From Bradyrhizobium sp. (GTDB taxonomy: Bacteria; Pseudomonadota; Alphaproteobacteria; Rhizobiales; Xanthobacteraceae), in contig NZ_SSNA01000122.1 of NCBI RefSeq assembly GCF_004799445.1, forward strand, positions 1 to 64,000: a stretch of DNA of 64,000 nt, written 5' to 3'. A program made the translations under genes and the position numbers. The notes below the pieces were generated by a model, which was not told where the DNA came from, did no database searches, and saw only the letters and a program-made list of their open reading frames with translations. Positions 10,574 to 63,156 of the stretch are shown here, piece by piece; the first letter of the stretch is position 1, and each line of letters opens with the position of its first letter.

Positions 10574-10676
10574 GCCGTCATTCCGGGGCGTCCGAAGGTC
10601 GAGCCCGGAATCCATAACCACGATCGTGAGTATGGATTCCGGGCCTGCGCCTTGCGGCGCATCCCGGAATGACGGC
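10574..10676. repeat. Dispersed palindromic repeat, GCCGTCATTCCGG family, copy 1
   Basis: A roughly 100-base imperfect palindrome between the sigma factor and the YCII gene. The outer arms are GCCGTCATTCCGGG and CCCGGAATGACGGC, and an inner pair GGAATCCATA / TATGGATTCC is also complementary. It shares outer arms with the copies at 21608 and 60801 but has a different centre. No protein signature is inside it. Confidence 0.9.
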
Positions 10677-11186: not shown

Positions 11187-11612
11187 TCAGTCGGCCGGAC
11201 GGCCGCTCCCGCTACGGCCGAAAGGCTGCGGGGGAGGAAAGTCCGGGCTCCATCGACATACGGTGCCGGATAACATCCGGCGGGGGCGACCCCAGGGACA
11301 GTGCCACAGAGAACGAACCGCTTCCCCCACCCCTAACGGGAGGGGCAGCAAGGGTGAAAAGGTGCGGTAAGAGCGCACCGCGGGTCCGGCAACGGAACCG
11401 GCATGGCAAACCACACCGGGAGCAAGACCGAATAGGGGCGGCAAGGCGGGCAGTTCGCGCAAGCGATAACGCCGCAGGGCGATGTCAGGCTCGCCGTCCG
11501 GGTAGGTTGCTCGAGGCAACGTGCGAACGTTGTCCCAGAGGAATGGCCGTCACGTATCGTCCGTGCAAGCGGGCGATGCCCTACAGAACCCGGCTTACAG
11601 GCCGGCTGATGC
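11187..11612 (+). ncRNA. rnpB: RNase P RNA, bacterial class A
   Basis: Catalytic RNA of ribonuclease P, which removes tRNA 5' leaders. The conserved P4 5' strand element GAGGAAAGTCCGGGCTCC is at about 11234, the ACAGAA of the 3' P4 half is at about 11584, and the closing CCGGCTTACAGGCCGGCT sits at the 3' end. The 426-base length fits an alphaproteobacterial type A RNA. The extents are estimated from the P1 pairing and may be off by a few bases. ORFs called across it on either strand are spurious. Confidence 0.96.
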
Positions 11613-11620
11613 TCTAAAAT

Positions 11621-21596: not shown

Positions 21597-22523
21597 CTAT
21601 CCATCCACCGTCATTCCGGGATGGTCCGTAAGGACCAGACCCGGAATCTCGAGATTCTCCGATGTGCAATAGCACATCGTTGTTCGATGCTTCGCATCGC
21701 CCCGGAATGACGGCTGGATTGCTTCCTCGCTTCCACTTGCTCCGGACGCCGCGCTGGCCTCGCCCCGTAATTGCTCGCGATAGCCGGGATGTTCGGTTCC
21801 CATCAGCCGGTCCCACCAGGTGAAGTAGAGCCCGTAATTATGGTGGAAGCTCGAGTGATGAAGGTCGTGATGGGTTGTCGCGTTGATCCAGCCGAACCAG
21901 CGGCTGTCGGCGAGCGAACGGGGCATCAGTTCGACGCCGGCGTGCCCCATGACATTGCGCACGATCATGAAGGCCATGAACAAAAACAGCCCGAGCGCAT
22001 GCATCGGGACGACCGTTAGCCAGAGCGGCGTAAACAGCGCCATCAGCAACGCCTCCGGGACATCGAAGGCGTAGGCCGCGAACGGCGTCGGAGTCACGGA
22101 GCGATGATGGGTGCGGTGGAAAATGCGAAACAGCCGCGGATGGTGCATCAGCCGATGCGTCCAGTAGAAATACGCGTCATGCGCGACGATGATCGCCACG
22201 AGACTGACCGCGAGACAGCCAGTCCCGGCGGTCTCGAAATCCGTATAGACCGTGAAGACGCCGTGCATGGCGCCGAGCACGATTGCAACGCCGGTCAGCG
22301 AGAAGATGATCCCGGTCCGCAGCGAGGTCAGGATTTCGCGCCTGACGTCGGCGCGCGACGCCGACCGGGCCTGGATCTTGCGCCGGCCAAGCCCGGCATT
22401 CCAGAACAGTTTCAGGATCAGCGCCATGACGCCGGCCGCGATGACGTAACGGCCGACATCCAGAGCGAGATTGGGGGACCAGATTTGCCAGAAGCTGGCC
22501 AGCGCATCGGAGATAACTTGCAT
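21597..22523 (-). CDS. Sterol desaturase / fatty acid hydroxylase family protein with repeat-encoded tail
   Basis: Di-iron membrane oxygenase family acting on lipids. Histidine clusters are present: HDAYFYWTHRLMHH, FHRTHHRSVTPTPFAAY and TTHHDLHHSSFHHNYG, interleaved with four or so membrane segments. ATG 22523 (MQVISDALASFW) is preferred over the track start at 22577. The last 38 or so residues (from about position 271) are translated from the palindromic repeat at 21608-21713 and have no counterpart in the family, so the native C-terminus was probably near GTEHPGYREQL. Substrate is unknown. Confidence 0.88.
   Translation of the reverse strand: MQVISDALASFWQIWSPNLALDVGRYVIAAGVMALILKLFWNAGLGRRKIQARSASRADVRREILTSLRTGIIFSLTGVAIVLGAMHGVFTVYTDFETAGTGCLAVSLVAIIVAHDAYFYWTHRLMHHPRLFRIFHRTHHRSVTPTPFAAYAFDVPEALLMALFTPLWLTVVPMHALGLFLFMAFMIVRNVMGHAGVELMPRSLADSRWFGWINATTHHDLHHSSFHHNYGLYFTWWDRLMGTEHPGYREQLRGEASAASGASGSEEAIQPSFRGDAKHRTTMCYCTSENLEIPGLVLTDHPGMTVDG
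21608..21713. repeat. Dispersed palindromic repeat, GCCGTCATTCCGG family, copy 2
   Basis: Outer arms CCGTCATTCCGGG and CCCCGGAATGACGG, with inner hairpins GGTCCGTAAGGACC and GATGTGCAATAGCACATC, and GATGCTTCGCATC near the right end. It overlaps the 3' end of the sterol desaturase-like gene and supplies its stop-proximal codons. It is nearly identical to the copy at 60801. Confidence 0.95.
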
Positions 22524-53386: not shown

Positions 53387-53390
53387 GTCC

Positions 53391-53512
53391 TGTTCCGAGG
53401 GGAGCTCCGATGAGGAGCTGAGAGACCGCACGCTCAAGTCCTTGTTCGCAAGGGATGCGAGACCGCGGTGACCCTTTGAACCTGATCCGGGTCATGCCGG
53501 CGAAGGGACAGG
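53391..53512 (+). promoter_or_regulatory. TPP riboswitch (THI element)
   Basis: Contains the two sensor elements of the TPP aptamer: GGGGAGCTCCGATGAGGAGC leading into CTGAGAGACCGC, and ACCCTTTGAACCTGATCCGG leading into GTCATGCCGGCGAAGGGA. The thiO ATG at 53514 begins directly after the aptamer, and its ribosome-binding site (GGGACAGGG) is within the closing helix. Ligand binding should therefore block translation initiation, as is usual in Gram-negative bacteria. Confidence 0.97.
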
Positions 53513-53513
53513 G

Positions 53514-54554
53514 ATGTACCAGAGTTCGATACCACAGCGCGGGCATTTGCCCGTCGCGCCCCGAGGGGAATCTCCCGTTTCGGTCATCGGCGCCGGCATT
53601 GCCGGCGCATGGCAGGCGCTGTTGTTCGCGCAGGCCGGCCATCCCGTGACGCTGCACGAACGCAGCGACCAGGCGATGATGCTCTCCACCAGTCACTGGG
53701 CCGGCGGCATGCTGGCGCCCTATTGCGAAAGCGAGGTCGCCGAGCCGATCATCAGCCGGCTCGGCCTGCGCGCGCTCGATCTGTGGCGCCGCGAATTGCC
53801 GGACACGCCGTTCAACGGCTCGCTGGTGGTGGCGCATGCGCGCGACCGCGGCGACTTCGAACGTTTTGCGAAACGGACCTCGGGCCACCGCCGGCTCGAC
53901 GCGCGCGGGCTCGCCGAGCTCGAGCCCTCGCTGGAGGGACGTTTCCGCGACGCGCTGTTCTTTGCCGACGAAGGCCATGTCGAGCCGCGCCGGGTGCTGC
54001 CGAAACTGCACGAGCGGATCGTCGCCGCCGGCGGCACCATCAAATTCAACAGCGAGCCGGGGCCGGATGATATCGAGGGCATCGTGATCGACTGCCGCGG
54101 GCTTTCCGCGCGCGACACGCAAAGCGAATTGCGCGGCGTCAAGGGCGAGCTGATCCTGATCGAGACCGATGAGGTGAAACTGGCGCGGCCGGTGCGGCTG
54201 ATCCATCCGCGCTGGCCGCTCTATGTAATTCCGCGCGAGGACAATCTGTTCATGCTGGGCGCCACCTCGATCGAGGCCGAGGATACCGGCGTCAGCGTGC
54301 GCTCGGCGCTGGAGCTGCTGGGCGCGGCCTATGCGGTGCATCCGGCATTCGCCGAAGCCCGCATCGTCGAATTCGGCTCGGGCTTGCGGCCGGCGTTTCC
54401 CGACAATCTGCCGCGCATCTGTATCGCCAACAACCGCATTTCGGTCAACGGCCTCTATCGCCACGGTTTCCTGATCGCGCCGACGCTGGCGGAGCTGACG
54501 CTCGCCTATGTCGACCAGGGGCGGATCGACAACGAGGTGATGCAATGCGTGTGA
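53514..54554 (+). CDS. thiO: Glycine oxidase ThiO
   Basis: FAD enzyme that oxidises glycine to iminoacetate (dehydroglycine) for thiazole formation. The 346 residues show the FAD fingerprint VSVIGAGIAGAWQALLFAQA at about residues 22-41, then MLSTSHWAGGMLAPYCESEV, a family hallmark, and FMLGATSIEAEDTGV. The C-terminal VNGLYRHGFLIAPTLAELTL closes the FAD site. Its stop overlaps the thiS start. Regulated by the TPP riboswitch directly upstream. Confidence 0.95.
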   Translation: MYQSSIPQRGHLPVAPRGESPVSVIGAGIAGAWQALLFAQAGHPVTLHERSDQAMMLSTSHWAGGMLAPYCESEVAEPIISRLGLRALDLWRRELPDTPFNGSLVVAHARDRGDFERFAKRTSGHRRLDARGLAELEPSLEGRFRDALFFADEGHVEPRRVLPKLHERIVAAGGTIKFNSEPGPDDIEGIVIDCRGLSARDTQSELRGVKGELILIETDEVKLARPVRLIHPRWPLYVIPREDNLFMLGATSIEAEDTGVSVRSALELLGAAYAVHPAFAEARIVEFGSGLRPAFPDNLPRICIANNRISVNGLYRHGFLIAPTLAELTLAYVDQGRIDNEVMQCV

Positions 54555-54770: not shown

Positions 54771-54880
54771 GCCGTCATCCTGAGGCGCGAGCCGTTTTCG
54801 GCGAGCCTCGAAGGATGGCCACGTCCCACATCCCTGTCATCCTTCGAGGCGCGCAAGGGCGCGCACCTCAGGATGACGGC
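54771..54880. repeat. Dispersed palindromic repeat, GCCGTCATCCTGAGG family, copy 1 (between thiS and thiG)
   Basis: Arms GCCGTCATCCTGAGGCGCGA and CCTCAGGATGACGGC, with inner CCTCGAAGGATG / CATCCTTCGAGG. Inserted within the thi operon without breaking a gene. Related copy at 62433. Confidence 0.93.
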
Positions 54881-56290: not shown

Positions 56291-56315
56291 TGATGATTTC
56301 GAAATCAAAGCGGCC

Positions 56316-56402
56316 GTCATTGCGAGCGCAGCGAAGCAATCCATATCCCACCAGCGGCACAAGGCTGGATTGCTTCGTCGCTTACGCTCCTCGCAATGAC
56401 GG
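56316..56402. repeat. Dispersed palindromic repeat, GTCATTGCGAG family, copy 1 (between thiE and thiC)
   Basis: Arms GTCATTGCGAGCGCAGCGAA and GCTCCTCGCAATGAC, with GCAATCCA / TGGATTGC inside. A second copy is at 63071. It separates thiE from thiC; no terminator-like T run follows, so the operon may read through. Confidence 0.93.
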
Positions 56403-59921: not shown

Positions 59922-60065
59922 AAAACTCCGATGTCGTCCCGGGCAAGCGAAAGCGCGACCCGGGACCCATAACCACCGGCCGTAGTTGTTTGGGCACGCC
60001 GGGGCTCCAGCTTCGCGCAACAACAATGCCCGTGGTTATGGGTCCCTGCTTTCGCAGGGACGACA
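59922..60065. repeat. Dispersed palindromic repeat, TGTCGTCCCGGG family, copy 1
   Basis: Arms TGTCGTCCCGGGCAAGCGAA and TTCGCAGGGACGACA, with CCCATAACCAC / GTGGTTATGGG inside. It lies between the glycosylase and the oxidase-fold gene. The copy at 61161 is about 90% identical and has matching changes on both arms. Confidence 0.95.
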
Positions 60066-60104
60066 CTGAGGTAGCCAGCGTAGCCGGACGAGCGTAGCGA
60101 CATC

Positions 60105-60728
60105 CTATTCCTCGCCCTTCCGATGCGGATCGTATTTCGAGAGCACGTCCCTGAGGTAATCCCGGCTTTTCCATTCCGGCGCCGGCGGCTCGTAGCCGGG
60201 GCGGGGAACGTAGGGATTGCCGGGGGCATCCACTGAGGCGCCCATCAGGTCGGGAACGTAGCGCGGACAGTTCGGGAAGATCTCGCATTTGATCCGCACG
60301 ACGACTTTCGCGCCATGATGCTGGCCAAGCGTTTCCGCGTCGTCGTGGATCGTGGCCGTGCCGCGGATGCGGGTGCGAAACGTCTTGCCGTCGAGGCGCA
60401 CGAACAAGAGCCCGACGTTCGGGTTGCGGTGAATATTGCCGAGCGTGCGGTACATGTTGTTGCCGTCATATTCGGGATATTCCAGCGTGTCGGGCCCGGT
60501 GATCCTGACGAAGCCGGGATCGCCCGAACGCATCGAACAATCGACGTTGTCCCGGTAGCTGGTGGCGATGAAAAAGAACGGCGTCACCTCGATCAGCTTG
60601 CGGTCCTGCTCCCAGAACTCGAAGTGCAGGCGATGCTTCTCGAGGCCATCGGCGACGCGGCGGCCGTCGAAGCGGTCCTGCAGCTCGCGCATGCCGTCGT
60701 GGTAGAACGGGGTGATCGGGTCGGTCAT
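60105..60728 (-). CDS. Pyridoxamine 5'-phosphate oxidase-family (FMN-binding split-barrel) protein
   Basis: The 207 residues form a PNPOx-like split barrel: ITPFYHDGMRELQDRFDGRR at the N-terminus, RKLIEVTPFFFIATSYRDNV, DCSMRSGDPGFVRITGPDTL, NMYRTLGNIHRNPNVGLLFV and FRTRIRGTATIHDD. The PNPOx fold binds FMN or F420; this subgroup (MSMEG-type 'PPOX' proteins) has no known substrate, and true PdxH motifs are absent. Monocistronic. Confidence 0.85.
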   Translation of the reverse strand: MTDPITPFYHDGMRELQDRFDGRRVADGLEKHRLHFEFWEQDRKLIEVTPFFFIATSYRDNVDCSMRSGDPGFVRITGPDTLEYPEYDGNNMYRTLGNIHRNPNVGLLFVRLDGKTFRTRIRGTATIHDDAETLGQHHGAKVVVRIKCEIFPNCPRYVPDLMGASVDAPGNPYVPRPGYEPPAPEWKSRDYLRDVLSKYDPHRKGEE

Positions 60729-60800
60729 GGGGACCTCGGCTTAGGTGCAGCATGTCCCGCTTGATAGCAGACCGCCGCCCCCGGCGCCCATGATATTGGG

Positions 60801-60903
60801 CGTCATTCCGGGATGGTGCGCAGCACCAGACCCGGAATCTCGAGATTCTCCGATGTGCAATTGCACATCGTAGTTCGATGCTTCGCATCGCCCCGGAATG
60901 ACG
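60801..60903. repeat. Dispersed palindromic repeat, GCCGTCATTCCGG family, copy 3
   Basis: Nearly identical to the copy at 21608 (same arms and inner GATGTGCAATTGCACATC and GATGCTTCGCATC hairpins). The hairpin GGTGCGCAGCACC replaces GGTCCGTAAGGACC with both arms changed together. Confidence 0.95.
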
Positions 60904-60926
60904 GCCCACCCTACGCTTGCTGCGAG

Positions 60927-61133
60927 CTAATCGTGGGTCCGTGACGCCTGGATCACAAGCCGGATCAGCCCGACCAGGGCGATCAGCCCGCCGGCAAAAC
61001 TGGCGGCCAGGGCAAACAGGCCGAGCCCGACCGGCATTGCGTAGCGATCATAGGCCTCGACCATCCACAACGGCACCCATGAAACAACCGTGATGAAGAT
61101 GCCCACGACGATCGAAATCAGGTTTGCTTTCAT
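60927..61133 (-). CDS. Small membrane protein, two helices
   Basis: A 68-residue protein with two hydrophobic helices (LISIVVGIFITVVSWVPLWM and LGLFALAASFAGGLIALVGL) separated by EAYDRYAMPVG. No domain recognised. It sits between two dispersed repeats. Confidence 0.6.
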   Translation of the reverse strand: MKANLISIVVGIFITVVSWVPLWMVEAYDRYAMPVGLGLFALAASFAGGLIALVGLIRLVIQASRTHD

Positions 61134-61160
61134 GCGCGAGCTGCCCTTCGCATTGCTGCG

Positions 61161-61306
61161 ATAACTCCGATGTCGTCCCGGGCAAGCGAAAGCGCGACCC
61201 GGGACCCATCACCACCGGCCGTCGTTGTCTGGGCACGCCGGGGCTTCAGCTTCGCGCAACAACGACACCCCGTGGTGATGGGTCCCTGCTTTCGCAGGGA
61301 CGACAT
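61161..61306. repeat. Dispersed palindromic repeat, TGTCGTCCCGGG family, copy 2
   Basis: Second copy of the unit at 59922, including ACTCCGATGTCGTCCCGGGC at the left. Inner pair is CCCATCACCAC / GTGGTGATGGG. It lies between the small membrane protein gene and the exported protein gene at 61370. Confidence 0.95.
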
Positions 61307-63070: not shown

Positions 63071-63156
63071 GCCGTCATTGCGAGCGCTAGCGAAGCAATC
63101 CATCGTACCGCACGGGAATGGATTGCTTCGTCGCTCACGCTCCTCGCAATGACGGC
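63071..63156. repeat. Dispersed palindromic repeat, GTCATTGCGAG family, copy 2
   Basis: Arms GCCGTCATTGCGAGCGCTAG and TCCTCGCAATGACGGC, with GCAATCCA / TGGATTGC inside as in copy 1 at 56316. It directly follows the long non-coding element. Confidence 0.93.

Follow-up and report, generated by a model that had tools for sequence, protein, structure and literature searches.

The window, i.e., the whole 64,000-nucleotide stretch of Bradyrhizobium sp. DNA that was analysed, carries two direct copies of a REP dimer of the family here named A: A1 (59933..60064, + strand) and A2 (61172..61304, + strand), about 93% identical to each other. A dimer of this family is built from a pair of inverted REP units of the CGTC type with their tails directed inward, each made of GTCGTCCC-hairpin-GGGACCCAT and then a tail such as AACCAC, and in most dimers 60-70 nt separate the two units. 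In A1 the left unit (GTCGTCCC..GGGACCCAT) is followed by the tail AACCAC (59971..59976, + strand), whose between-unit partner is GTGGTT at 60032-60037; the right unit lies on the minus strand, its tail also reads AACCAC, and the tags are on the outside. The tails of A2 are CACCAC/CACCAC, the left one (61210..61215, + strand) being faced by GTGGTG at 61272-61277. Since A1 and A2 also share ~9 bp on the 5′ side and ~6 bp on the 3′ side beyond the canonical ends, the two probably go back to a local duplication; close direct A copies of this type also occur in the relatives G004 and G100.

Two genes, 60105-60728 (an ORF on the minus strand) and ~60932-61132, sit between the two direct A copies within the segment 59866-61369. 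In the relative G078 the outer genes of this segment are neighbours, separated by a different small stretch in place of the inner genes, so that the segment may have been inserted in one lineage only, with an A dimer on either side. The G078 locus was considered as the pre-insertion site of A1/A2 and rejected, its spacer sequence being different and devoid of an A dimer, and A1/A2 are not polarisable from it. Nor did the orthologues of the 60105-60728 gene lead to A copies at orthologous positions: the best matches in relatives are without flanking synteny, and no A elements are found there.

A second family, B, is represented by B1 (21609..21712, + strand), a Br-REP1/Br-REP2-type element with the hairpin GGTCC-GTAA-GGACC, and by the similar B2 (60801..60903, + strand), with the hairpin GGTGC-GCA-GCACC; the architecture is CGTCATTCCGGG-hairpin-CCCGGAATCTCGAG plus an inverted second unit. 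A hybrid element at 10576..10674 (+ strand) joins B-type ends (CGTCATTCCGGG..) to a family A tail (CCATAACCAC) and makes the modularity of these repeats evident. Inverted pairs of CGTC-1-like repeats, CGTCATTGCGAG..GCAATCCA, lie at 56315-56400 and 63073-63153, with more CGTCATCCTGAGG repeats at 54774, 54877 and 62433. The loops of A units repeatedly hold a palindrome like TAGTGCGCAATTGCGCAC, at differing places and on the left or the right (alleles L296, L298, L311, L313 and L329; own copy C94:4424-4583), and a related one is present in B1 and B2, giving the look of a nested module. The window further contains a bacterial RNase P RNA (class A, 11187-11613) and a TPP riboswitch (53388-53526), both above the Rfam gathering score. 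Sequence searches of the draft genome (6.25 Mb, 241 contigs, 99.99% complete) collected 57 A and 55 B matches, numbers far beyond chance as repeats. All 36 relatives of the genus that were searched contain family A, whereas 24 genomes of the same order from outside the genus gave a single weak match.

The REP-like identity originally proposed for these elements is borne out: they are short palindromes of an ordinary, already described type, the CGTC-tagged REPs scattered across Bradyrhizobium genomes. CGTC-1 and CGTC-3 REPs have been described in Bradyrhizobium as intergenic head-to-head dimers with no dedicated transposase, and extended loops were reported for CGTC-1 (Di Nocera 2013, PMC3733652). 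When compared by described features rather than by consensus sequence, the present families share the outer (C/T)GTC (C or T precedes GTC in 66/84 units of A and 42/45 of B), the head-to-head dimers, the intergenic position and the lack of a dedicated transposase. With respect to the described stem of 8-9 bp and loop of 4-5 nt, short A units have an 8-bp stem and a 4-nt loop, while long A units and B units have extended loops. The first two stem positions are A-T pairs in B (ATTCCGGG) and G-C then T-A in A, whose first stem base is therefore G and not A; A dimers carry a CCCAT tail, which is CCA-like as in the hybrid, whereas the tail of B, CTCGAG, differs. Family B appears to be the published Br-REP1/Br-REP2 element, having CCGGAATCTCGAGATTC and flanking palindromes that, by eye, match Br-REP1 and resemble the Br-REP2 consensus, although the second unit of B1 and B2 is partly replaced by an insertion, a palindrome that in most copies reads CGATGTGCAATTGCACATCG. 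Family A would be a sibling family with a stem of 8 bp, a loop of 4 nt and a CCA tail, and is not described in the parts of the Br-REP report that we consulted (Hahn 2016, PMC5082802).

The original prediction rested on two paired differences, both confirmed by direct reading of the letters. Where A1 has A in the left tail and T in the right, A2 has C and G, and the exchange of GGTCC..GGACC for GGTGC..GCACC between B1 and B2 is equally real, 15 of 27 own-genome hairpins having C-G, 12 having G-C and none being mixed. The family A pair, CCCATAACCAC/GTGGTTATGGG, falls between two units 60-70 nt apart, while in family B GGTCC and GGACC are the two arms of a single small hairpin; the former thus concerns between-unit and the latter within-hairpin pairing, and the two need separate tests. 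As evidence of maintained pairing, the B example belongs to a strongly covarying class and the A example to a class without covariation. Of the predicted maintenance of pairing and covariation over a wider set of copies, accordingly, the part regarding the unit's own hairpin stood and the part regarding the two arms of the dimer did not.

Within the units, inner pair 1 was Watson-Crick in 194/198 cases as compared to 74.6 ± 6.4 after permutation, with T-A, C-G and G-C all common. Searches for the genus-wide set used a family A query, and the parsing of units required near-intact ends, which dropped 10 orthologues and biases the outer, not the inner, stem pairs towards being paired. In 79 disjoint pairs of close dimers, whose spacers are at least 72% identical, within-unit pairs showed 84 both-arm and 78 one-arm changes, or 34 and 30 when only units of equal length were considered, counts that exceed the number of double-change events because the copies are related and share history. 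Both-arm and one-arm changes are hence about equally frequent within hairpins. In an alignment of 21 sequences 99.7% of the within-unit positions were paired, with a covariation of 0.143 that none of 500 shuffles equalled, and slide controls as well as shuffles backed this structure. These data show that the hairpin of each unit is a conserved object whose pairing is strongly maintained.

The longer pairing between the units behaves otherwise. The same 79 pairs yielded one both-arm complementary change against 116 one-arm changes, plus five other double changes, and the sole both-arm case is A1/A2 itself. The contrast with the within-unit changes is highly significant for all units (Fisher p ~ 3e-24) and for those of the same length (p ~ 6e-18); it holds at a spacer identity of at least 80% (16/24 vs. 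1/49, p ~ 3.5e-6), and at 85% or more it is only 5/10 vs. 1/20 (p = 0.06). Because a query with AACCAC tails, as used for the initial dimer collections, could bias a test on the tails, a tails-free pattern search was run, and the result was unchanged: in 99 dimers (30 from the own genome) extracted without reference to tails, three tail cells were compensatory compared to 12.0 expected with arms re-paired at random, the own-genome figures being 3 vs. 14.7. In own-genome dimers AACCAC mostly faces ACGCCG or ACCGCG, which are not fully pairable with it, ACGCCG never faces itself, and most of these dimers are unable to pair along their tails. The orthologous alignment of 21 genomes gave a both-side change in 0/15 between-unit pairs, and pairing between units stood at 73%. 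Only the outermost cross-unit pairing in this 21-sequence subset showed a weaker covariation, at one column pair, which we attribute to both units often being of one type in related alleles. The between-unit pairing is therefore shown not to be maintained, and to decay by one-arm changes.

The same contrast emerges at one orthologous A dimer site (own copy C152:18614-18730), at which about 68/149 genomes have a full-length match. On a flank tree of 57 parsed alleles, within-unit pairs changed on both arms to another Watson-Crick pair 37 times, were broken 19 times and were never repaired, 880/900 cells (98%) being paired; the between-unit stem had 0 double and 22 single changes, and the tails ~1.4 double and ~71 single changes. 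The flank tree is weakly resolved and inflates the counts in all classes, so that the evidence lies in the contrast and not in the number. Short, long and AATT-tipped hairpins were swapped whole at this site, and the dimer has been lost or replaced in many genomes. Ten fetched alleles (L330-L335, L340, L346, L347 and L351) are reduced to one palindrome, e.g., GTCGTCCCGGCGAAGGCCGGGACGAC, as if all between the outer arms had been deleted. Their interpretation as empty sites was rejected: most retain a GTCGTCCC..GGGACGAC palindrome and thus look like collapsed dimers rather than clean empty sites. In others (L336-L339, L341-L345, L348-L350 and L352) a longer unrelated sequence, apparently genes, takes the place of the dimer.

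Several of these results bear on how both arms come to change together. A minority of the within-hairpin double changes are C-G/G-C flips, for which there is no passage via a G.U wobble; together with the whole-hairpin swaps, these make a one-step cause likely in part. Partial one-step origin is also suggested by the lack of reconstructed repairs and by the 13 of the 34 equal-length double changes that are unreachable by wobble. A single event explaining both arms, which the original prediction had set against its own claim, consequently fits part of the within-hairpin data. Against it, 21 of the 34 are transition pairs, for which a wobble route is possible, and the inversion of the loop, the hallmark of template switching, was seen once. 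Overall, we favor, with a probability of roughly three in four, the reading that these are CGTC-type REPs of Bradyrhizobium in which each unit retains its hairpin, pairing between the units decays, double changes arise largely in one step and no RAYT is needed. The hairpin of one unit would probably be replaced as a whole by that of another, or a short template switch within the hairpin during replication may have the same outcome, as proposed for the maintenance of hairpins in RNA genes (Monttinen and Loytynoja 2022, PMC8794818); unpaired variants would then be removed. That report shares with our case the one-step route to both-arm changes, and differs in concerning RNA genes and in the loop-inversion signature, found here once. 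The tail difference of A1/A2 would be a rare exception that arose after the local duplication; a single continuous template switch was rejected for it, as ~5 nt between the matching segments are not complementary.

An exchange between dispersed copies, by ectopic gene conversion or unit swapping, might by itself explain almost every both-arm change without any selection acting on pairing, a tentative option that we rate below even odds. In its favor, hairpins of the short, long and AATT-tipped types take one another's place at a single orthologous site, where L299 (G030) has a GGGC..GACCC unit and many alleles GGAC..GATCC. However, RecA-type conversion would find only a short stretch of homology around a unit, some changes are as small as that of TGCGAACGCA to CGCGAACGCG, and the rarity of broken pairs suggests that unpaired forms are removed.

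A function in RNA, with the hairpins acting in 3′-UTRs as mRNA stabilisers or terminators and selection on the RNA fold alone leading to classical two-step compensation, is comparably doubtful. Br-REP1/2 were indeed seen within 3′-UTR-region RNAs of B. japonicum (Hahn 2016, PMC5082802), the A and B2 copies of the window lie in convergent or co-directional spacers, and C-G/T-A makes up 19/34 of the same-length double changes. Yet mismatches in the units are similarly often G.T (21) and A.C (16), so that a tolerance of or preference for RNA wobble is not evident in these counts, in which the transcribed strand is not resolved; the double changes beyond the wobble route, the zero repair steps at the orthologous site and the frequent loss or replacement of the dimer there weigh in the same direction.

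A more far-reaching idea, that whole small hairpins are copied or replaced in place without a transposase, so that palindromes at fixed positions in the chromosome undergo concerted evolution as hairpin cassettes, we consider unlikely, although the frequent both-arm changes, the C-G/G-C flips, the swaps of short, long and AATT-tipped hairpins and the lack of a dedicated RAYT are features that fit it.

Weakest of all is the originally suggested RAYT-type transposition, whereby the elements would be REPINs moved by a Y1 transposase and their pairing selected for mobility: the dimers are REP-like and head-to-head, as in REPINs two inverted REPs with a spacer can fold into one long hairpin, and compensatory between-arm changes are common in Pseudomonas REPINs (Bertels and Rainey 2011, PMC3116915), but between-arm pairing is not maintained here, the tag is (C/T)GTC and not GTAG, and published CGTC REPs are without a dedicated transposase. 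Some kind of match to the Y1/RAYT transposase family (PF01797) occurs in 91/149 Bradyrhizobium genomes; none was found at E ≤ 1 in the own 99.99%-complete draft, where controls were positive, nor at E ≤ 0.001 in the A-rich G010, G002 and G005 or in G004, a single contig and the most A-rich genome seen, which leaves the RAYT reading unsupported. By a rough measure, first-look counts of family A were no higher in genomes with Y1 than in those without (p = 0.24), and among eight Y1 loci inspected an A unit was located at 1/8 and a B or CGTC-1 unit at 0/8. Such a transposase is very improbable as the agent behind these repeats, the upkeep of which would need no RAYT.

For CGTC-type REPs in which only the unit hairpin is kept, the present analysis distinguishes two levels of pairing, which in REP dimers are readily mistaken for each other, and, unlike the report on Pseudomonas REPINs, finds the long dimer hairpin not kept. 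Complementary stem changes are already coded in the consensus figures of the CGTC REPs (PMC3733652), and what our data add is a quantified example of an element type that was already known. The orthologous site, at which about 68 Bradyrhizobium genomes carry a dimer, offers a ground for comparing one-step and two-step compensatory evolution, and the findings as a whole argue that a resident RAYT is unnecessary for the persistence of CGTC repeats.
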